A stretch of DNA of 33,912 bases. Source: Chloroflexota bacterium (lineage in GTDB: Bacteria > Chloroflexota > Limnocylindria > Limnocylindrales > CSP1-4). Positions 1 to 26,876 of this stretch are shown here, one piece after another; within the stretch, counting starts at the first letter, position 1, and each line of letters opens with the position of its first letter. Position numbers and translations under genes: made by a program. The stretch is from NCBI GenBank assembly GCA_021825385.1, contig JAKAHU010000004.1, forward strand, positions 1 to 33,912, read 5' to 3'. The notes beneath the pieces were generated by a model. That model saw only the letters and a program-made list of their open reading frames with translations. It had not been told where the DNA came from and did no database searches.

Positions 1-301
1 CCCGCAGCACCCCGCCCCGGCGGCCCCTCGCCTCCTCGGGCGAGCCCAGCCGCTCCACGACCGCCATGACGTAGGACAGCCCGTAGGCGGTCCCCACGCG
101 CCGCTGCTGCACCGGGTCCCACTCGTCCAGCTCGGGCAGACCGAGCGACTGGCCCCAGCCCGCGCCCTCGAACGCGAGCGCCAGCGTGAAGATGCCGTGG
201 TCCTCCCGCAGCAGCGAGAGGCGCGAGACGCGCGCCACCTGCGCCTCGTAGACGAAGTCGTCCACCGTCAGCGGGAACGGGGGCACCTCAGTCGGGTCCA
301 T
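1..301 (-). CDS. hypothetical phage protein (3' end lies outside the window)
   Basis: Open frame on minus strand from ATG at 301 (MDPTEVPPFPLTVDDFVYEAQVARVSRLSLLREDHGIFTLALAFEG...) with no stop before base 1; overlaps the stop of the upstream HTH gene. Confidence 0.65.
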   Translation of the reverse strand, partial: MDPTEVPPFPLTVDDFVYEAQVARVSRLSLLREDHGIFTLALAFEGAGWGQSLGLPELDEWDPVQQRRVGTAYGLSYVMAVVERLGSPEEARGRRGGVLR

Positions 302-644
302 CGCCGGCCTCCGGCCCGTCTCCGGCCAGCACGCCCATCGGCACGTTCAGCCGCCGGGCGAACGTCCGCAGGGTCGGCAGGCTGGGGAACGACAGCCCCG
401 TCTCGATGGCCGAGACGAACGCCTTGGTCCGCCCCGGCGCGGCGAGCTGGGCCTGCGTCAGCCCGCGGCCCACCCGCACCGCCCGGACGCGCGCCCCCAC
501 GGCGACCCGGTAGGCCGCCTCGTCGGCGTCCTCCGGCACCGGGTCCAGCGCGTCGAGCGGCAGCGCCTCCAGCCGCCGCACCACCTCCGCCAGCGGTGCG
601 ACCTCGCCGCCCGGCAGCACCACCAGTACGGTCCCCGGCGTCAT
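288..644 (-). CDS. XRE-family helix-turn-helix DNA-binding protein
   Basis: Translation has VGARVRAVRVGRGLTQAQLAAPGRTKAFVSAIETGLSFPSLPTLRTFARRLNVPMGVLAG, a typical HTH_3/XRE pattern; ATG at 644. Confidence 0.8.
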   Translation of the reverse strand: MTPGTVLVVLPGGEVAPLAEVVRRLEALPLDALDPVPEDADEAAYRVAVGARVRAVRVGRGLTQAQLAAPGRTKAFVSAIETGLSFPSLPTLRTFARRLNVPMGVLAGDGPEAGDGPD

Positions 645-1060
645 CGCGTCTCCTTCCTCGCTGCTACTCCGGTCAGGGCCTCGACGCGCGCCACGGCCCA
701 GCACGTCCCCCGCATGGCGAACCCGCGGCACCCGCAGGTGAGGTACGGCCGGGCGGGGTCGTCCACGACGGTGACGACGTGCGCCCACGGCCTGCCGCTG
801 CGGCTGGGGTAGACCACGGCCATCGGCAGGGCGGACTCGTCCTTCGCCTTCCTCGGAGCCGGGAACAGGTCGCCGAGCACCCGCGCCCCGGTGGCGGCCG
901 CGAACGCCTCCACCTGCTCGTAGTAGTCGGCCTCCCCGTCGCTCGACCCGTGGCCCAGCTCCGGGTCGAGCACCACCTCGCGGAAGCCCTCGCACTGGCA
1001 GTACGGCCCGTAGCAGCGCCCGTCGTGGACGTCGGCCTCGTGGCCGCAGGCGCAGGTCAC
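641..1060 (-). CDS. zinc-binding protein with SWIM-like C-terminus
   Basis: GTG start; N-terminal TCACGHEADVHDGRCYGPYCQCEGF and C-terminal YLTCGCRGFAMRGTCWAVARVEAL resembling a SWIM motif. Confidence 0.55.
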   Translation of the reverse strand: MTCACGHEADVHDGRCYGPYCQCEGFREVVLDPELGHGSSDGEADYYEQVEAFAAATGARVLGDLFPAPRKAKDESALPMAVVYPSRSGRPWAHVVTVVDDPARPYLTCGCRGFAMRGTCWAVARVEALTGVAARKETR

Positions 1061-15115: not shown

Positions 15116-15576
15116 CCGATCTCGCGCCGGTGACGCTGACGGAGGCGCGCCGCTTCGTGGCGGAGCACCATCGACACAACCGCGCCCCACAGGGCTGGCT
15201 GTTCGGCGTGGGGTTGCGAGAGGGCGACTCCCTCGTCTCGGTAGCGATTGCTGGTCGCCCAGTCTCTCGTAACCTCGACGACGGACGAACGGTGGAGATC
15301 ACGCGAGTCTGCACACTGGGACAACGGAACGCGAACAGCCGCCTCTACGGCGCGTTGTGTCGGGCTGCCGCAGCACTCGGGTACTCCCGGGCCGTGACGT
15401 ACACGCTGCTGTCGGAGTCCGGCTCGTCTCTGCGAGCTGCGGGGTTCCAGCAAGCAGAGCAGTTGAGCCAGCGGACCTCGTGGGCCAACCCGTCTCGTCC
15501 TCGACAGGACCGCACGATCTGGGGCGAGCGCACGCTACCGGATGAGCCGAGGGTGCGCTGGGAGCGTGTGCTGTGA
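15112..15576 (+). CDS. XF1762-like (GNAT-like) protein
   Basis: LTEARRFVAEHHRHNRAPQGWLFGVGL...RTVEITRVCTLGQRNANSRLYGALCRAAAALGYSRAVTYTLLSESGSSLRAAGF. Confidence 0.75.
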   Translation: MTDLAPVTLTEARRFVAEHHRHNRAPQGWLFGVGLREGDSLVSVAIAGRPVSRNLDDGRTVEITRVCTLGQRNANSRLYGALCRAAAALGYSRAVTYTLLSESGSSLRAAGFQQAEQLSQRTSWANPSRPRQDRTIWGERTLPDEPRVRWERVL

Positions 15577-17618
15577 GGCTGACCGCGCTTCGGTTGGTGA
15601 ACTTCATGAGCTGGGATCACCTCGACCTCGACCTGTCAGAGTGCGACGTGGTAGGCGTCACGGGCAGGGTCGGATTCGGAAAGTCGAGCCTTCTCGACGC
15701 TCTCTTGTGGGCGATCTACGGCGAGGGGCGTGCCAGCGCGGACGCGATGGTGCGGCAGGGCGAGGAGCGCGCGGCGGCCGAGGTGGAGTTCGACGCGGGC
15801 GGACGACGCGTGCTGGTGCGGCGGGAGCGCGAGCGTGGCCGGTCCACGGCGCTGACGCTGGAGGTGGACGGCCAGAGCCTCACCCGGCACACGGTCGCGG
15901 AGACGCAAGGAGCCATCGACGAGCTGGTAGGCGTGTCGTCCGACGCGCTGCTGGCGACGGCGGTCATGGTGCAGGGGCGCAGCGACGAGTTCGTGCGGCT
16001 GCGACCGGCCGAGCGCATGGCGCTGCTCTCGGACCTCGTGGTGGAGGACCCGTACCCCGCGTGGCATGAGGAGGCGAAACGCCGTCGCGATGATACACGT
16101 GAAACGGCCGCCAAGGCGGAGGCGCGTCGGGCGCTGCTGGCCGAGCAGGGCGAGCGCGCCGCGGAGTACCGAGAGGCTGCGGCTAGGCACTCTGCCGCCG
16201 CAGAGCGCGCGAGGGAGGAGGCCGAGTCGAGCCTGCGGGCGCTGCGTGACGCCGAGGCGGCCACTGCGGGGCTGCGAGTCGCGGAGGAGCGCCGAGCGCG
16301 TCTGGCGGCGGAGGTGGAGCGTGTCGCTGCGGAGCGCGAGCGACTGGAGGCCGACGTCCTTCGCCTGCGTGCGGTGGTCGAGCAGCCCGACCCGTCGATG
16401 CCACCGCGACCAGACCCCGAGGTGTTACGGCAGGCTGAGGAGGATGCCGAGGTTGCTCGCCGTGCTGCGGCCGACCTACGGCTGGCGCGGGTCGGGCTAG
16501 AGCAGGCCGCGCGAGAGGAGGAACGAGTCCGCTCGCTGGCGTATGACCGCTCGGCGATACCCTGTCACGGCGAGGGGGTCTATGCGGCCTGTCCACTGTT
16601 GGCGACGATCCCCACGGCGGAGCGGGTGCAGGCGGTCGTCGCGGCGGCTCGGGATGCCGAGTGGGGCGTCCTCGCGCTGGAGGTGCTGGCCTCCCCTGAG
16701 GAGGCGCGGCGCGAGGAGGCCGAGCGGCTGCGCGAGCAGTGGCACGCGTGGGAGCGAGACGCGGCAACAGCCGAGGCATCGCGACTGGCGCTGGCGACGC
16801 GCAGGGAGGACGCGGCGCGCGACGCTGCCTCGGCGGAGGAGCGGCTGACGAGCCTCGCTGCGGTGGAGGCCGCGTCACAGGCCGAGCTAGCAGCGCTGTC
16901 TGGTCCGGAGGCCGACCGGTTGGCGGCACGCGAGGCGATGATCACGGCGCTGCGCGAGGATGCCGAACAGGCCGCGGCGGCGGCAAGACGGCTGGGGGAG
17001 CAGGCGGCGGTGTCCGCTCGCGACGCGGATCGCGCCGAGCAGGCCGCGCGGGAGGCAGCGGAGGCACAGGCAGAGGTTGAGCGCGAGTCGGGGCTCGCGC
17101 AGTCCTACGCCGCACTGGCCGAGGCGTGGCACCCCTACGGCATCCCCCGCCTGATCGTGGAGGAGGCCATTCCCCGCATCGAGGCGCACGCCAACGAGGC
17201 GCTGGGGCGCCTGCCCGGCGGGTTCGTGCTGCGCCTGTCGACGAGCCGGGAGAAGCGCGCGGGCGGGACCACCGACACGCTCGACGTGGTGGTGGAGATC
17301 GGGAGCCGAGAGCGCGACTACGGGCTGCTGTCGGGCGGGGAGCGGTTCCGCGTCGACCTCGCCCTGCGGCTGGGCATCGCCGCGCTGCTGGCCGAGCGCA
17401 CCGGCCGGAAGGTCCAGACGGCTATCTTTGATGAGCCTCTAGCACCCGGCGACGAGCAGGAGCGGGAGGCGGTGCTGGAGGCCATCTCTACGCTCGCGGA
17501 GGAGTACGGTCTGATCATGGTCATGTCGCATGACACCGACTTTGCCGATGCGCTCCCGTGGACTCTGCGGGTCACCAAGGAAGGCGATGCCAGCAGGGCC
17601 GTGCTATCGCGTCAGTGA
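15573..17618 (+). CDS. sbcC: SbcC/Rad50-like SMC-type ATPase
   Basis: LRLVNFMSWDHLDLDLS...GRVGFGKSSLLDALLWAIYG (Walker A), long coiled coil, LLSGGERFRVDLALRLGIAALL signature, TAIFDEPLAPGDEQ, LIMVMSHD. Confidence 0.82.
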   Translation: MRLTALRLVNFMSWDHLDLDLSECDVVGVTGRVGFGKSSLLDALLWAIYGEGRASADAMVRQGEERAAAEVEFDAGGRRVLVRRERERGRSTALTLEVDGQSLTRHTVAETQGAIDELVGVSSDALLATAVMVQGRSDEFVRLRPAERMALLSDLVVEDPYPAWHEEAKRRRDDTRETAAKAEARRALLAEQGERAAEYREAAARHSAAAERAREEAESSLRALRDAEAATAGLRVAEERRARLAAEVERVAAERERLEADVLRLRAVVEQPDPSMPPRPDPEVLRQAEEDAEVARRAAADLRLARVGLEQAAREEERVRSLAYDRSAIPCHGEGVYAACPLLATIPTAERVQAVVAAARDAEWGVLALEVLASPEEARREEAERLREQWHAWERDAATAEASRLALATRREDAARDAASAEERLTSLAAVEAASQAELAALSGPEADRLAAREAMITALREDAEQAAAAARRLGEQAAVSARDADRAEQAAREAAEAQAEVERESGLAQSYAALAEAWHPYGIPRLIVEEAIPRIEAHANEALGRLPGGFVLRLSTSREKRAGGTTDTLDVVVEIGSRERDYGLLSGGERFRVDLALRLGIAALLAERTGRKVQTAIFDEPLAPGDEQEREAVLEAISTLAEEYGLIMVMSHDTDFADALPWTLRVTKEGDASRAVLSRQ

Positions 17619-19987: not shown

Positions 19988-20356
19988 ATGCGGCGCGTGG
20001 TGGCCGTGGTGGTGGTACTGGTCGTCGCCTACGCGTGGCTGTCCGGCGGGTTCGCGCTGCTGCTCCCGACGGTCGCCCCGGGCCGGTGCTCGGTGGGGCT
20101 GAACGGCGCGGCGGTGTCGGTGACGGTGCAGGGGCCGGGCGCGATGGGAGCGTGCGAGGAGTTCCTGACGCAGACCACGGACGGGGGGACGTGGTACGTC
20201 TACGCCTCCGGCGAGCAGCCGACGGCGCCGCTGGTGTGTCAGGTGGCGCTCTCCGGCGACGTGGTGGACGTGCGCGACTCCGGGCTGCTCGACGCCTACG
20301 GCACGACCATCTGCAACAACCTGATCAAGCAGGCGAACGCGCAGGTGTCCCCATGA
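19988..20356 (+). CDS. membrane-anchored or secreted hypothetical protein
   Basis: MRRVVAVVVVLVVAYAWLSGGFALLLPTVAPGRCSVGLNGAAVSVTVQG...; good RBS. Confidence 0.6.
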   Translation: MRRVVAVVVVLVVAYAWLSGGFALLLPTVAPGRCSVGLNGAAVSVTVQGPGAMGACEEFLTQTTDGGTWYVYASGEQPTAPLVCQVALSGDVVDVRDSGLLDAYGTTICNNLIKQANAQVSP

Positions 20357-20700
20357 CTGACATCGACCTCGCCGCCATCGAGGCGCGGCACCACGAGAAC
20401 GAGACGTGGGACGCGGGCAATCCGCGAGCTGGCGCAGACCATCAGGTCCATTGGTGCCCGTGCAGCCCGGGGAGCGACTGGCCCTGCGACACCCGGCAGG
20501 TGCTCGACGTTCTCCGCGCCGCCGAGGCGCGCGAGGCGCGGCTGCGGGCGGCAGGGCAGGTGCTCTACGACGAATGTGCCGAGACGTGGCCCGACGAGTG
20601 GATCGACGAGGAGTCCTCGATGGCGATGCAGGTCATGGTGCGTGGCCGCACACTGGCCGCCCTGCGTACCCTGCTCGCCGAGCCGGAGGCCGAGCCGTGA
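20353..20700 (+). CDS. hypothetical protein with IEARH...WPCDTRQVLD motif (paralog of 2425-3093)
   Basis: MTDIDLAAIEARHHENETWDAG...WPCDTRQVLDVLRAAEAREARLRAAGQ. Confidence 0.65.
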   Translation: MTDIDLAAIEARHHENETWDAGNPRAGADHQVHWCPCSPGSDWPCDTRQVLDVLRAAEAREARLRAAGQVLYDECAETWPDEWIDEESSMAMQVMVRGRTLAALRTLLAEPEAEP

Positions 20701-21056
20701 GCGAGTTCGAGAAGTGCCACCACGGCTGGCTCCTCCATGGCATTCCGCCGTGTGAGAAGTGCGAGGCCGAGCGCGCCCCGATCTTCCACGCGATCCGGAT
20801 GGAACGACGGCGGCAAATCGCGAAGTTCGGGGACCAGAGCGGCAAGCCGCTTATCCGTTGGCTCGGCATCTTGGCCGAGGAGGCGGGAGAGGTCGCCAAG
20901 GTCGTCATGCAACACGACGACGACCAATACGCCTACGAGCACAGTACGCTCGATGATTTACGCCGTGAACTCGTGCAAACGGCTGCCGCTGCGGTGGCGT
21001 GGGTCGAGAAATTGGATCGTGCCGCCCTCGCCGAGCCGGAGGTCGAGCGACCATGA
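20697..21056 (+). CDS. MazG-like nucleotide pyrophosphohydrolase family protein
   Basis: IRMERRRQIAKFGDQSGKPLIRWLGILAEEAGEVAKVVMQHDD...LDDLRRELVQTAAAAVAWVEKLD; EExxE-type motif. Confidence 0.72.
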   Translation: MSEFEKCHHGWLLHGIPPCEKCEAERAPIFHAIRMERRRQIAKFGDQSGKPLIRWLGILAEEAGEVAKVVMQHDDDQYAYEHSTLDDLRRELVQTAAAAVAWVEKLDRAALAEPEVERP

Positions 21057-21298
21057 CGTTCTCTGTCAAGGAGGCGACGAACCGGCAGATGGACCGTCTC
21101 ATGGCAAGCGCGCGCCGTGGCCGTCAAGCAGAGCGGTCGGAACCCCGCACGGAGATTGTGGTCGAGTCGCTGAATGGGCCGGTTTCGATCAGCTTCGGTC
21201 CCAGCGACATCGAAGCCGTCATCATGGAGTTGGAGGCCGACGCGCCCTGCGGCGTATGTCATCAGAATCCCTGCACCTACGGGCGGACCGACGCGTGA
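21053..21298 (+). CDS. hypothetical protein with APCGVCHQNPCT knuckle (paralog of 14867-15115)
   Basis: MTFSVKEATNRQMDRLMASARRG...VSISFGPSDIEAVIMELEADAPCGVCHQNPCTY. Confidence 0.6.
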   Translation: MTFSVKEATNRQMDRLMASARRGRQAERSEPRTEIVVESLNGPVSISFGPSDIEAVIMELEADAPCGVCHQNPCTYGRTDA

Positions 21299-21651
21299 GG
21301 CCCCTCGCTCTCGCCCTGCTCGCCCTCCTGCTCATCGTGGCGCTCCGTCGCCGCGAGCCGGACCGGGCGGTCATGGCGCGCCGCGTCTGGCGCAGGCTGG
21401 AAGCGCAGCCCGGCTTCAATGAACGCATCGAACTCGGCAGGGCGCAGATTGCCGCCAGACGGGTCACGCGGTTCAACCCCGACGCCGACACAGCGGCATG
21501 TCCTACGTGCGATGGCGAGGGGCTGATCCAGTGCCACGACTTCATCGGTTGTCTCCATGACCCCCACTACGACGGCTACCACCTGTGCAACCGCTGCGAC
21601 GGTTCCGGCCTCCAGCCGTCCGACTCGTACCCGGCGAGCCTGCTGCGATGA
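21295..21651 (+). CDS. small membrane protein with DnaJ-type CxxCxGxG repeats
   Basis: Hydrophobic N-terminus RPLALALLALLLIVAL; CPTCDGEGLI...CNRCDGSGL. Confidence 0.6.
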   Translation: MRPLALALLALLLIVALRRREPDRAVMARRVWRRLEAQPGFNERIELGRAQIAARRVTRFNPDADTAACPTCDGEGLIQCHDFIGCLHDPHYDGYHLCNRCDGSGLQPSDSYPASLLR

Positions 21652-21977
21652 GCGAGCCCGAGTTCGACGCGGAGGGCTACCCGACGAAGGCGACGCTGCG
21701 GGCCGTCCGCGAGTGGCCGATCCAGACATGGGCCGACACGGAGGCGCTGTTGCGGTTCGTCGGCGCAGCGTGGTCGTATCCGAACTACTTCGTGCGCCTT
21801 GGTCGGCGCAAGCGACCGTATCGCGGGGCGACGCTGGAACGCCGGTGGCTCGTCAGCACCGGAGGCTGGTCGGGCAACGAGGACCTGATCGCGGCGATGC
21901 AGTCGAACGTCATGTTCTGGATGCTGTCGTGGGAACGCTCCGAGCGCGGCGGCCATTACGAGTTCCGGTCCCGATGA
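21648..21977 (+). CDS. hypothetical protein
   Basis: MSEPEFDAEGYPTKATLRAVREWPIQTWADTEALLRFVGAAWSYPNYFVRL... Confidence 0.6.
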   Translation: MSEPEFDAEGYPTKATLRAVREWPIQTWADTEALLRFVGAAWSYPNYFVRLGRRKRPYRGATLERRWLVSTGGWSGNEDLIAAMQSNVMFWMLSWERSERGGHYEFRSR

Positions 21978-22030
21978 CCCGCCCGCTCGTCCTCCTGCTC
22001 GCGAGCGGCAGCATCTTGCATCCGCATCGC

Positions 22031-22051
22031 GCGACGTGTACCGTACGTCGC
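22031..22051. terminator. hairpin, possible terminator
   Basis: GCGACGT-GTACCGT-ACGTCGC in the gap between 21977 and the terminase small subunit; no U-tract. Confidence 0.35.
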
Positions 22052-22139
22052 TAATCGGGCGGGCGACGACGACAACGCTCGACCCGCTAGCCGCCCCGCC
22101 AGCGGCCCCTCTTGGGTATGGGGGAAGTCTCTCCGAGCG

Positions 22140-22688
22140 ATGGCCGACCAGCAGCTCCCGAACGATGCCGGCGCGACACCTGCAGCCTCTCACCCGCGCG
22201 CGCGCGCGAACGTCTGGCAGGACCGCTTCCTAGAGGAGTACGCCCGGCTCGGCAACGTCACCTTCGCGGCCCGGCTGGCGGGCGTGGACCCCTCGACCGT
22301 CCGCGCCGCCCGCGCCCGACAGGTGGGGTTCGCCGTCCGCATGAAGGCCGCCGAGTACGGCTACTGCGACCGCATCCGGCTGGAGATCCACCGCCGCGCC
22401 GTGGAGGGCGTGGAGAAGCCGGTGTTCGGCACGGTGATCGACGCCAACGGCAACCGCGTCACCGGCCGGGTGGGCGAGGTCCGCGAGTACTCCGACCGCA
22501 TGCTGGAGCTGGAGGCGAAGGCGCGCATGCCGGAGGAATACGGCGAGCGGCTGCGGATCGACGTGGCCTCGGAGGCGCGCCGCATCGCCCGCGAGCTGGG
22601 CGCCACCCCCGAGGAGGAGGAGGCCGCGGTCGCGGAGGCCGAGCGCATCCTGCAGCGCAGGCGCGAGGAGTCGCGGCGCCGCGTCTGA
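22140..22688 (+). CDS. terS: terminase small subunit-like DNA-binding protein
   Basis: WQDRFLEEYARLGNVTFAARLAGVDPSTVRAARARQVGFAVRMKAAE..., HTH typical of phage small terminase; upstream of TerL. Confidence 0.65.
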   Translation: MADQQLPNDAGATPAASHPRARANVWQDRFLEEYARLGNVTFAARLAGVDPSTVRAARARQVGFAVRMKAAEYGYCDRIRLEIHRRAVEGVEKPVFGTVIDANGNRVTGRVGEVREYSDRMLELEAKARMPEEYGERLRIDVASEARRIARELGATPEEEEAAVAEAERILQRRREESRRRV

Positions 22689-22698
22689 GGCAGAGGGC

Positions 22699-22750
22699 GT
22701 GTACACGAGGGCGTGTACACGGTAGAATGTGTACACGGAGGTGTGTACAC
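22699..22750. promoter_or_regulatory. operator array: four GTGTACAC palindromes around a TAGAAT box
   Basis: GTGTACAC at 22699-22706, 22713-22720, 22729-22736 and 22743-22750; TAGAAT at 22723-22728. Confidence 0.8.
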
Positions 22751-22751
22751 G

Positions 22752-23171
22752 ATGCCGCGACCCACGATGACCGTCCGCGACTTTCGCGCCGGGTTCGCCA
22801 GCCTGACGGAGCCGACCGACGTCGGACCCTCCCCCGCGGGGCCGAAGGGCACGTGGTTCCCCGGCGGCCACGAGTGTCCGCCCGAGAACGTCGTCCGCAT
22901 GGGTCAGCATGCTCCCGCCGCGATGGAGGCGGCGCGGACGAAGGTCGAGGGTCTGGAGGAGATCAACCGCAACCTCACCGCGCGGCTGGTCGAGACGTCC
23001 GACGCGCTACTCGTCGCTTCCGATGAGGTCGCCCGGCTGAAGCGCGAGCTGGCGAAGGGCCACGCGGGCGAGCCCCTTCCTCCCGCGACCGGCGGGTACA
23101 GCCGGCAGGGGGACCTCGCCGTGCGCGGCATCCTCGGCAAGCTCGCGACGGGACGGAAGGGCAAGGACTGA
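22752..23171 (+). CDS. hypothetical protein under the GTGTACAC array
   Basis: MPRPTMTVRDFRAGFASLTEPTDVGPSPAGPKGTWFPGGHECPPENVVRM...; begins right after the fourth palindrome. Confidence 0.6.
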   Translation: MPRPTMTVRDFRAGFASLTEPTDVGPSPAGPKGTWFPGGHECPPENVVRMGQHAPAAMEAARTKVEGLEEINRNLTARLVETSDALLVASDEVARLKRELAKGHAGEPLPPATGGYSRQGDLAVRGILGKLATGRKGKD

Positions 23172-23365
23172 TGCCGACGCCGTGGTTCAAGACCCGCATC
23201 GAGGAGCTGGAGGGCAAGCTGCACGAGGCGGAGGTGGCGCTGTCGAACGCGCTCGCCCGCATCGCGGAGCTGGAGGCCGAGGCGCCGCGGGGTCGGCCGG
23301 AGCCCCTGAACAACCCGGGGCCGGAGGTAGATGCCTCGCCGTGGCTGCGGGGGCCGACGAGGTGA
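23171..23365 (+). CDS. small coiled-coil protein
   Basis: MPTPWFKTRIEELEGKLHEAEVALSNALARIAELEAEA... Confidence 0.5.
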   Translation: MPTPWFKTRIEELEGKLHEAEVALSNALARIAELEAEAPRGRPEPLNNPGPEVDASPWLRGPTR

Positions 23366-23550
23366 GCGAGCAGCCGAAGCCGCCCGCGCCTCCCGACACG
23401 TACCTCGATGCGTCGGCAGTCGCGCTGGGGCGCTGGCTGGCGGAGACGTACCGGGGGCTGCGCGAGGGCGGCATGAGTCGAGCGGAGGCCCTTGAGCTGC
23501 TGGTGCGGTTCCTGACGGCGACCCGCGACGGACCGGATCAGAAGCCGTGA
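23362..23550 (+). CDS. hypothetical protein
   Basis: VSEQPKPPAPPDTYLDASAVALGRWLAETYRGLREGGMSRAEALELLVRFLTA, GTGA junction. Confidence 0.55.
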   Translation: MSEQPKPPAPPDTYLDASAVALGRWLAETYRGLREGGMSRAEALELLVRFLTATRDGPDQKP

Positions 23551-23759
23551 CCGGCTGCGTCTACTGCGCCGAGCTGGCCGACGAGGCCGAGGGCGCGCTG
23601 ACCGTGGGGGAGCTGCGCAGGGCGCTCGCCCAGTTGCCGGACGACCTGCCGGTGCTGGTCGAGACGACCGCCCGCTCCGCCGTGAACGTCTGCGAGGCCC
23701 ACGTCGAGGAGCACCACGGGCGACGCTGGCTGTCCATCGGAGAGGCGGGGACCGGGTGA
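23547..23759 (+). CDS. hypothetical protein
   Basis: VTGCVYCAELADEAEGALTVGELRRALAQLPDDLPVLVETTARSAVNV..., GTGA junction. Confidence 0.55.
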   Translation: MTGCVYCAELADEAEGALTVGELRRALAQLPDDLPVLVETTARSAVNVCEAHVEEHHGRRWLSIGEAGTG

Positions 23760-24148
23760 CGGCCGATCAGCCGCGCAGGTTCAAGTACCCCTTCGGCTGG
23801 GTGAGTGCGGCGCAGCCCATCGCGGCCCTGATCCGCTTGGGCGCCCTGATCCCCGTCACGGTGTTCGGCAACTGCGAGCACCCCGTCCCGACTCGTCCGG
23901 GCGCAGCCGAGACGGCGTGCAACGACCAGGCGCACTGGGCATACGGACTGTGCGACCTCATGTCGGAGCACTCGCTGGCGGGCTCGGACTGTAACCGCGC
24001 CGACCACTTCCTCCTGCGCCCGAGCGACGAGGCGATGGCTGACCCCGTGGTGCGCGAGGCCATCGCGGCGGTGCTCCAGTCGGTAGCCGATGACTACTGG
24101 GACGGCGTGCTCGACGAACCGGCACCCGCCGAGGCCAAGCGAGCGTGA
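23756..24148 (+). CDS. hypothetical protein
   Basis: VTADQPRRFKYPFGWVSAAQPIAALIRLGALIPVTVFGNCEHPV..., GTGA junction. Confidence 0.5.
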   Translation: MTADQPRRFKYPFGWVSAAQPIAALIRLGALIPVTVFGNCEHPVPTRPGAAETACNDQAHWAYGLCDLMSEHSLAGSDCNRADHFLLRPSDEAMADPVVREAIAAVLQSVADDYWDGVLDEPAPAEAKRA

Positions 24149-25734
24149 GCATCGACGCGTCCCTCATCGGCTACGAGGCGGCCAAGACGGCCATCGCGCG
24201 CAGCCGGTCCCGAGCGCGGGTGGAGGACTCGCGCATCGGCTGGCAGGCCGACCCGGTGGGCTGGGTCGAGACGCGCCTGACCGAGCGCATGTGGAGCAAG
24301 CAGCGCGACATCGCGCTCAGCGTCAGGGACCACCGACGCACGGCGGTCCACGCGGGCTTCGCTTCGGGCAAGAGCTGGACGGCGGCGCGGATCGCCGCGT
24401 GGTGGCTGGAGTCTCACCCGTCCGGGCAGGCATTCGTGGTATCCACGGCCACGTCCTTCGCGCAGGTGCGCGCGATCCTCTGGCGGGAGATCAACCGCGC
24501 CCACGCCAAGGGCAGGCTCGTCGGCCGCGTGAACCAGACCGAGTGGTGGATCGACGACGAGATGGTGGGCTTCGGACGCAAGCCGTCCGAGTACAACGCC
24601 GAGGCCATCTCCGGCATCCACGCGCGCTACGTGCTGGTCATCATTGACGAGGCGTCCGGCGTTCCGGCCAGCCTGTGGGATATGGCCGACGGGCTCGTGG
24701 CGAACGAGGACAGCCGCATCCTCGCCATCGGCAACCCCATCGACGCAGCCAGCCGCTTCGCGACGGTGTGCAAGCCGGGCAGCGGCTGGAACGTGATCGG
24801 GATCGGCGCGTTCGACACCCCCGCCTTCACCGGCGAGGAGGTAGCGGAGGACGTGCGGGCGCAGCTCGTGTCGCGCACGTGGGTCGACGAGAAGCGGGCC
24901 GACTGGACGGAGCAGAGCCCGCTGTGGGACTCGCTCGTGCTGGGACGCTTCCCCGAGGAGTCCACCGACTCGGTGGTGCTGCTGTCGTGGGCGAAGGCGT
25001 GTCAGCGCGAGCCGGACAGTGAGGCGCAGGCCGAGCAGTGGGCGGCCGAGGAGCCGAACGAGCTGGGCGTGGACGTGGGCGCGGGCGGGGACGAGACGGT
25101 CATCTACCACCGCCGCGGCGCGCGGGCCGAGCTGCTGTGGCACGGCCAGACGCCGGACTGGCCGCAGGCCACCGGACACGTCGTGGACGCCATCCGGCAG
25201 ACCGGCGCGCGGCGGGTCAAGGTGGACGTCATCGGGATCGGCTGGGGCGTGGTCGGCCGCCTAGAGGAGCTGCGCGAGCAGGGCGCCCACGCCTGCGAGG
25301 TGGTGGGCGTGAACGTGGCCGACGCGCCGCGCGACCCGAGCCGCTTCGTGAAGCTGCGCGACGAGATCTGGTGGACGGTCGGCCGCGACAACTCGCGCAC
25401 CCTGACGTGGGACCTGCGGGCGGTCGACGACGCCACGATCGGCCAGCTCATCGCCCCCAAGTACGCGCAGGACTCGGCGGGGCGGGTCAAGGTCGAGCGC
25501 AAGGAGGAGACGCGCAAGCGCATCGGGCGATCCCCCGACCGCGCCGACGCCCTGCTGCTGGCGTTCTACGAGCCGGACGCCATCGGCGAGGGCGTGACCG
25601 ACTGGATCTACGGCATCTACAACTGCACGAACGCGCGCTGCGGCCGGGGCTTCGTCTGGCAGCCCGAGCGCCCCTGCCCCTACTGCGGGACGAAGGCTCC
25701 CGCCGAGTACCCCAAGCCGCCGGGGGTCGCGTGA
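24145..25734 (+). CDS. terL: terminase large subunit
   Basis: VHAGFASGKSWTAARIAAWW (Walker A), YVLVIIDEASGV (Walker B), nuclease region ELGVDVGAGGDETVIYHRRG; C-terminal zinc ribbon CTNARCGRGFVWQPERPCPYCG. Confidence 0.88.
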   Translation: MSIDASLIGYEAAKTAIARSRSRARVEDSRIGWQADPVGWVETRLTERMWSKQRDIALSVRDHRRTAVHAGFASGKSWTAARIAAWWLESHPSGQAFVVSTATSFAQVRAILWREINRAHAKGRLVGRVNQTEWWIDDEMVGFGRKPSEYNAEAISGIHARYVLVIIDEASGVPASLWDMADGLVANEDSRILAIGNPIDAASRFATVCKPGSGWNVIGIGAFDTPAFTGEEVAEDVRAQLVSRTWVDEKRADWTEQSPLWDSLVLGRFPEESTDSVVLLSWAKACQREPDSEAQAEQWAAEEPNELGVDVGAGGDETVIYHRRGARAELLWHGQTPDWPQATGHVVDAIRQTGARRVKVDVIGIGWGVVGRLEELREQGAHACEVVGVNVADAPRDPSRFVKLRDEIWWTVGRDNSRTLTWDLRAVDDATIGQLIAPKYAQDSAGRVKVERKEETRKRIGRSPDRADALLLAFYEPDAIGEGVTDWIYGIYNCTNARCGRGFVWQPERPCPYCGTKAPAEYPKPPGVA

Positions 25735-26186
25735 AGCGGACGCTAGCACTCGCGCTGACGTGTCCGGTCTGCCCCGGCTCGGAGTTCGCGAGCTGGCCGA
25801 GCCACTGGCGGACGCGGGCGCACCGCGAGGCGCTAGCCCGACAGCGGGCCACGTCCGAGCAGGCCGACGCGTTCATGTCGGCCATCGGGCGCTGGACGAC
25901 CCTGCACGTCGCCGACGCGGACTGGCCGCTCCACCTGCAGCGTGAGGCGGACGGCAAGTGGGTCGCCACGATCTACCCGCCGGACGCATTCGACGCGACG
26001 TTCGTCATGGCCGCGCAGCGGTTCGTCCGGTACGCGCCGAGCAGCCCGCTCAATCAGGAGCGAACGGAGCAGGCGACGAGGATGCCGCACTACTGGCGGG
26101 GCGAGTCGTATCAGGGGCTCGACGAGGCGCTGCACAACGCGGCGCTGGCGCTGCAGGTCGAGGGGCAGACGGAGGGGAGAGCATGA
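25731..26186 (+). CDS. hypothetical protein with C2H2-like motif
   Basis: VKRTLALALTCPVCPGSEFASWPSHWRTRAHREALARQ... Confidence 0.55.
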   Translation: MKRTLALALTCPVCPGSEFASWPSHWRTRAHREALARQRATSEQADAFMSAIGRWTTLHVADADWPLHLQREADGKWVATIYPPDAFDATFVMAAQRFVRYAPSSPLNQERTEQATRMPHYWRGESYQGLDEALHNAALALQVEGQTEGRA

Positions 26187-26287
26187 CGCCGCTGGGGTAC
26201 GCCGCGCTGGTGTCGTGGGCGCTGACGGCGGCCGCCATCATCCTCGCGATCACGCTGGTGCTCGTGGCGTGGAACGAGACGCGCTGA
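26183..26287 (+). CDS. single-pass membrane microprotein (34 aa)
   Basis: MTPLGYAALVSWALTAAAIILAITLVLVAWNETR, ATGA junction. Confidence 0.45.
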   Translation: MTPLGYAALVSWALTAAAIILAITLVLVAWNETR

Positions 26288-26301
26288 CCGAGGATGGCTG
26301 A

Positions 26302-26388
26302 GTGCTGTTCTGGCTCGTCATGGCGGTGGTCGTGGCGCTGTTCCTCGGCATCCTGATCTGGCACGCCCACAAGGACGACTGGCTGTGA
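26302..26388 (+). CDS. single-pass membrane microprotein (28 aa)
   Basis: GTG start; VLFWLVMAVVVALFLGILIWHAHKDDWL, with a GTGA junction to the next gene. Confidence 0.4.
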   Translation: MLFWLVMAVVVALFLGILIWHAHKDDWL

Positions 26389-26876
26389 GGCTGCCGCAAG
26401 GGCCCACATGCCCGAACTGCTCGATGCTGATGACCGAGGTGCCATGTCCGGTATGCGGGTTCTGGCCTAGTCGGGTGCATGCGGTCTATCCGATCTGGCA
26501 CGATCCCCTGACCGACAGCTATATGGCGCCGGGCAAGGTACCCATTGACAGACTCACGGCGGAGGGTATAGAGTCCCCTCGGCGGTTCGAGGAAGCGGGC
26601 CCGCCACGAGGGGTCGGAGCCCGAACGCTGGGGCCGAGGCCCGCCACGAGGGGTCCGCTTCCGCCGCCCCTGCAGCGAGGGAGAGCGACGATGGACGAGC
26701 AGCGAGAGGTGCCGCGGGAGTCGGCGCTGCTGCGGAGGTTGGCGGAGCACCAGACGACCACGCCGGGGACCGTGACGACCCCAGCCGAGCGCGCACGCAT
26801 GCGGCGCAGCTACTGGCGGACCGGCGTGCCGCAGGGGTCGTGGATCGACCGGGCGCTGCGGGGAGAGCTGCGGTGA
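26385..26876 (+). CDS. zinc-knuckle protein with possible internal in-frame start at 26691
   Basis: CPNCSMLMTEVPCPVCGFWPS at N-terminus; the same frame runs through a promoter to MDEQREVPRESALLRRLAEHQ (ATG 26691, 61 aa). Confidence 0.5.
   Translation: MRLPQGPTCPNCSMLMTEVPCPVCGFWPSRVHAVYPIWHDPLTDSYMAPGKVPIDRLTAEGIESPRRFEEAGPPRGVGARTLGPRPATRGPLPPPLQRGRATMDEQREVPRESALLRRLAEHQTTTPGTVTTPAERARMRRSYWRTGVPQGSWIDRALRGELR
26539..26577 (+). promoter_or_regulatory. promoter: TACCCATTGACA, about 16-18 nt, TATAGAGT
   Basis: TACCCATTGACAGACTCACGGCGGAGGGTATAGAGT; sixth exact copy of the 12-mer. Confidence 0.7.
26591..26662 (+). repeat. structured leader with two 18-bp direct repeats
   Basis: GGCCCGCCACGAGGGGTC at 26598-26615 and 26638-26655, exactly 40 bp apart, enclosed by GGAAGCGG (26591-26598)/CCGCTTCC (26655-26662). 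Confidence 0.7.

Follow-up and report, generated by a model that had tools for sequence, protein, structure and literature searches.

The established role of Phd/YefM proteins is that of antitoxins, which also act as repressors of the toxin-antitoxin operons encoding them. The phd promoter of phage P1, as given in the P1 record (TATAATTGTGTACACATAACGAGTACACGAGGTGTTTATG), has the layout TATAAT-T-GTGTACAC-(5)-GAGTACAC-...-ATG, and its GTGTACAC is the only copy in the 49 kb of P1 examined. Paired TGTACA palindromes that overlap promoters with 17-bp spacers were described for the yefM-yoeB and axe-txe operators, where the reader is a dimer of the Phd/YefM fold (PMC4803016, PMC7730913). A precedent for palindrome arrays in a terminase gene comes from P1 pac, which has seven TGATCA/G hexamers inside pacA (PMC10028697).

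A related arrangement was found in the DNA stretch analysed here (33,912 nucleotides, hereafter the window), which is contig 78 of a host assembly of 371 contigs and 3.54 Mb. An exact-match scan of the window located four identical copies of the 8-bp palindrome GTGTACAC, starting at 22699, 22713, 22729 and 22743 and thus spaced by 14, 16 and 14 bp. The features of the locus are as follows.

22140–22688, plus strand: terminase small subunit (TerS; PHROG 4044, E 6.2e-25), with its stop codon 10 bp before the array
22699–22706, no strand: GTGTACAC copy 1, covering the −35-like TGTACA (22700–22705)
22713–22720, no strand: GTGTACAC copy 2, within the −35/−10 spacer
22723–22728, plus strand: TAGAAT, a −10-like hexamer directly abutting copy 3
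22729–22736, no strand: GTGTACAC copy 3, over the site where transcription presumably starts, which corresponds to the position of GTGTACAC in the P1 phd promoter
22737–22741, plus strand: GGAGG, a Shine-Dalgarno candidate for ORF139 read from the sequence, between copies 3 and 4
22743–22750, no strand: GTGTACAC copy 4, flanked by the Shine-Dalgarno candidate and the ATG
22752–23171, plus strand: ORF139, presumed Phd-type autoregulator, with the N-terminus MPRPTMTVRDFRAGFASLTEP and a long helix predicted for residues 44–103 (AlphaFold2)
23171–23365, 23362–23550, 23547–23759 and 23756–24148, plus strand: four small ORFs with no assigned function and successive overlaps of 1–4 bp
24145–25734, plus strand: terminase large subunit (TerL; PHROG 2, E 7.9e-30), with a 4-bp overlap with the preceding ORF

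The initial annotation had already described the four palindromes with this spacing, the TGTACA inside copy 1 at 17 nt upstream of TAGAAT, the ATG at 22752, and a position of the array and its downstream gene between TerS and TerL; the sequence and the PHROG matches of both terminases confirmed all of these. TAGAAT had further been placed exactly between copies 2 and 3, and it does lie between them but is not centred, as it abuts copy 3 and begins 2 bp past copy 2.

The array is real and rare. By a Markov-1 model, 0.25 copies of GTGTACAC are expected per window as against the four present, all inside 52 bp, for which a rough chance estimate is about 1e-12, and no further exact copy was found elsewhere in the 33.9 kb. 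Of the 63 bp separating the TerS stop (22688) from the ATG of ORF139, 52 are taken up by the array. No terminal repeat was found on the contig. The host assembly holds 18 copies of GTGTACAC, four of them in the window array and 14 scattered singly, and no other paired array was found there; nor was another array of at least three copies found in a sample of 400 genomes of the phylum. A search of 176 other genomes from the host's class gave a single GTGTACAC pair (G425, L152), which was rejected as an operator array, being a coding repeat for Val-Tyr-Thr-Pro. IMG/VR contained only 14 stretches with a GTGTACAC pair at the window's 14-bp spacing, and only 18 with three copies 3–16 bp apart. Relatives identified by TerL (L145, L147, L150 and L151) carry neither GTGTACAC nor any clustered palindrome. 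Viral contigs with three bare TGTACA mostly show 12- or 15-bp periods that are possibly coding repeats, and one is a YefM-YoeB locus; the 6-mer alone is therefore not diagnostic.

With the layout TAGAAT-GTGTACAC-(6)-GTGTACAC-G-ATG, the window's TAGAATGTGTACACGGAGGTGTGTACACGATG is arranged nearly like the P1 phd promoter and operator. Common to both are a GTGTACAC directly behind the −10 box and a second palindrome 13–14 bp downstream, followed by a ribosome-binding site and the ATG of a presumed repressor gene. However, P1 phd-doc has one perfect and one imperfect palindrome, whereas the array here has four perfect copies that also extend over the −35 element and the spacer, has no Doc toxin gene beside it and is situated at terminase genes. 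With yefM-yoeB and axe-txe, the window shares TGTACA-core palindromes that overlap a promoter with a 17-bp spacer; those operators, in contrast, comprise two palindromes at a centre spacing of 12 bp and are accompanied by a RelE-type toxin, which is missing here. With its four GTGTACAC, the array has the at least two TGTACA-core palindromes expected of a Phd/YefM operator, but neither the centre spacing of 12 bp (yefM, axe) nor that of about 13 bp (P1 phd) is found in the window. Spacing also varies at the other array-linked Phd-like genes described below. Within the host's class, genomes show an about 18-fold higher density of TGTACA in the 80 bp preceding Phd/YefM genes, an enrichment stemming from only three of 30 loci, and one Phd/YefM locus there carries a 12-bp TGTACA pair like that of E. 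coli yefM.

TGTACA-17-TAGAAT agrees with 9 of 12 consensus bases, has a 17-nt spacer, spans copies 1–3 and is the only sigma-70-like site in 20000–26500 (6.5 kb), where 0.3 are expected by shuffling. The palindromes therefore overlap the −35-like element, the spacer and the start region of the promoter-like site predicted for ORF139. From the sequence, there is good support for reading the copies as putative operators of a promoter that would drive the downstream gene. This part of the initial annotation, which had regulator operators controlling a single inserted gene, was strengthened by the likeness to P1 phd and yefM/axe and by the array-linked Phd genes, whereas the single gene did not hold. 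Between TerS and TerL lie five small ORFs, ORF139 being the first, and each joint overlaps by 1–4 bp on into TerL, with the starts along the chain (ATG 23171, GTG 23362, 23547, 23756, 24145) each placed over the preceding TGA. Since the array fills the gap between TerS and ORF139 and the ORFs are chained into TerL, it heads a TerL operon and not a lone inserted gene. Profile searches found no toxin family of the Doc or RelE/YoeB type among the ORFs from ORF139 to TerL. Elsewhere in the window, a helix-turn-helix ORF (288–995, minus strand; PF13560) may encode a phage repressor and is a further candidate for reading the array, and 15573–17618 encodes an SbcC-like subunit of a palindrome-specific nuclease (PHROG 77, E 9e-59), in the same phage as the palindrome array.

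The N-terminus of ORF139 is suggestively Phd-like as judged from its sequence. Its TMTVRDFRAGFASL resembles QVSIRQLRANLAGEL of L100 and MNVREFRKDLSKHF of L071, two of the array-linked Phd-like proteins from viral contigs. Against profiles of these proteins, ORF139 has the best-scoring N-terminus of the window, scores above all 5,000 shuffles and ranks 14th and 25th among 5,619 N-termini in two tests, in the first of which 11 of the 13 N-termini ranked above it were training members or their duplicates. The alignment covers a helix of only 11–12 residues with non-significant E-values, and the ranks are a lead and no clean test, because profiles and test were chosen after the resemblance had been noticed. 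ORF139 gave no significant match in Pfam, PHROG or NCBIfam and did not rise above decoys with a general Phd profile; a PDB sequence search with its N-terminus returned nothing useful, and its single-sequence AlphaFold2 model was poor and matched no Phd structure in Foldseek. No homologues were found in 50,697 phage records or, by peptide pattern, in IMG/VR, and the 400 phylum genomes gave only weak matches, mostly to coiled-coil regions.

Viral contigs were then retrieved by DNA motif alone (GTGTACACN{4,12}GTGTACAC, plus a three-copy scan), and the 10,898 ORFs of the resulting loci were searched with a Phd/YefM profile derived from relatives of the host. Ten ORFs matched at E≤1, five of them below 0.001, with L010/L015/L026 and L004/L102 being duplicates among the matching loci; nine of the ten lie within 80 bp of GTGTACAC. 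Conversely, L307 was retrieved by protein alone, using three array-linked Phd-like queries and not the DNA pattern, and carries two GTGTACAC. The family was not found in cultured phages with three queries.

Array-linked Phd-like genes adjoin terminase genes in L004, L010, L071, L074, L100, L108, L116 and L307, and several are placed between TerS and TerL. The order is TerS, array, Phd-like gene, methyltransferase and terminase-like gene in L071; TerS, array, Phd-like, TerL-like and a large ORF in L074; TerS, a Cys-rich/array/Phd-like gene and TerL in L100; TerL, array and Phd-like in L010; TerS, a Phd-like gene containing the array and a TerL-like gene in L004; a Phd-like gene containing the array and a TerL-like gene in L108 and L116; and TerS (weak PHROG 51 match, E 0.003), Phd-like and TerL in L307. 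TerS is supported by HMM in L071, L074, L004 and L100, and TerL in L010, L100 and L307; TerL of L116 is supported by similarity to that of L010, and the remaining terminase-like genes were assigned by eye. A single PHROG used for all TerL overlooked several of them. The methyltransferase-like gene of L071 (1624–2922) recalls the methylation control of P1 pac.

The best PDB matches of the family profile are to P1 Phd (4zlx, E 0.001). For the L108 protein, AlphaFold gave a confident beta-alpha-alpha-beta-beta domain, to which Phd-family antitoxins are the nearest structures (Foldseek probability up to 0.99, with E-values of 0.25 and above). The terminase-linked Phd-like proteins (L004, L033, L071, L074, L100, L108, L116 and L307) have in common with the window a GTGTACAC array at or in the gene near terminase genes, and with ORF139 an Ile/Val-Arg-x-Phe/Leu-Arg helix, which lies N-terminally in their Phd-like domain. 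In these proteins, the domain is clear by sequence and fold, Cys-rich motifs are frequent and the copies often lie in coding sequence, whereas ORF139 matches the first helix only and has a long predicted helix instead. The Cys-rich motifs are zinc-knuckle-like (e.g., CxLCGxxH) and occur to either side of the DNA-binding domain, at the N-terminus in L100, L108 and L307 and at the C-terminus in L010, L033, L071 and L074.

Taken together, we lean, with moderate confidence, towards the array being a Phd-type operator, through which the TerL operon would be repressed by its own product ORF139 or by another Phd-type protein. Several related arrays speak against an operator: they are located in coding sequence, as far as about 240 bp downstream of the start codon, where a promoter operator is not needed. 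The main rival, to which we assign a clearly smaller though appreciable probability, is that the array mainly serves as a pac- or cosB-like packaging site, recognised by TerS, by a Phd-like packaging factor or by both, like the P1 pac palindromes inside pacA, with any effect on transcription being secondary. Its position directly behind TerS is where a pac or cosB site would be located, in or beside terminase genes, and P1 pac likewise is an array of short palindromes at terminase genes, although built of TGATCA/G with Dam sites inside pacA, whereas GTGTACAC in the window occupies an intergenic gap with promoter-like elements. Twelve of 28 distinct arrays with at least three copies are within 1.5 kb of a terminase gene as compared with 8.7 at random in the same clipped loci, and a near/far PHROG comparison agrees; however, about 4% of draws reach 12, so that the enrichment is only marginal by within-locus randomisation, and some array loci are at primase or helicase genes. 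Three GTGTACAC spaced by 21/22 bp lie inside TerS of L128 (2953–3888; PHROG 1889), just past the N-terminal part and with no Phd-like gene evident nearby, and L124 shows apparently the same pattern near 2913–2963, at a contig edge. As copies are found inside TerS and, read in any of the three frames, inside Phd-like genes (frames 1, 2 and 0 in L100), it is the DNA and not the protein that is conserved. TerS is nevertheless an unlikely common reader, because the TerS families adjoining arrays are unrelated (PHROGs 51, 57, 606, 1889, 6299 and 4044) yet share the 8-mer, and the placement of the window copies over promoter, start site and leader follows that of the P1 phd operator. Two further kinds of array were observed: one 82.9-kb phage contig bears two with 23-bp spacing or a multiple of it (L129:6870–6969 and L127:1877–1976), one directly behind TerL, and arrays of 3–9 copies beside primase/helicase-like genes (L047/L064/L131, L130 and L122) are possibly replication-origin iterons and not operators.

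Other explanations seem much less probable. Acting as an RNA element, the copies could pair in the transcript, 1 with 4 and 2 with 3, giving a long hairpin with interruptions that would mask GGAGG or be a processing site; the predicted fold of the 101-nt leader (−41.3 kcal/mol) does have the copies paired, and the Shine-Dalgarno sequence is in an internal loop. However, perfect palindromes fold by construction, the z-score is only −1.7 with 14 of 200 shuffles folding as well, Rfam gave no match, and the palindromes of relatives, being variably spaced, do not keep a common RNA structure, which makes such an element improbable. A recent functionless tandem duplication is about equally improbable: a 14-bp unit present 4.1 times at 75% match was returned by Tandem Repeats Finder, but the spacers (GAGGGC, GGTAGAAT and GGAGGT) diverge around four identical 8-mers, and terminase loci of unrelated phages carry this 8-mer as well. 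Similarly improbable is a host transcription factor that binds the array and controls the phage gene, for which the initial annotation had suggested searching the host genome for arrays. The host assembly does encode 11 Phd/YefM-type antitoxins that could bind TGTACA cores, but with GTGTACAC being rare and scattered there, and no other array of at least three copies found in the 400 phylum genomes, a host regulator is unlikely.

The Phd-type operator thus remains the preferred explanation: the array is operator-like and of the Phd type, probably autoregulatory, at the head of the TerL operon. Each GTGTACAC would be bound by a dimer of a DNA-binding protein of the Phd type, in the simplest case ORF139. 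Once occupied, copies 1 to 4 would block, in this order, the −35 element, the spacer, the start site and the leader. ORF139 would thereby be subject to negative autoregulation and so, via the overlapping genes, would TerL, separately from TerS. We infer ORF139 as the binder, the activity of the promoter and repression as the outcome.

The array is a toxin-less, terminase-linked variant of the already known Phd-type regulation. The same DNA code occurs without a toxin at terminase genes here and in several unrelated uncultured phages, and this association of array, Phd-like gene and terminase across phages is a more interesting result than the window array alone. It suggests that the packaging motor is under autoregulated control or, alternatively, that the arrays are packaging signals of a new kind. 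More speculatively, and with a probability slightly below that given to a packaging site in the window, GTGTACAC arrays and Phd-like proteins may together be an undescribed packaging module, widespread among uncultured tailed phages, in which an antitoxin-type protein encoded between TerS and TerL would mark the array as the packaging start and tune TerL from the same DNA.
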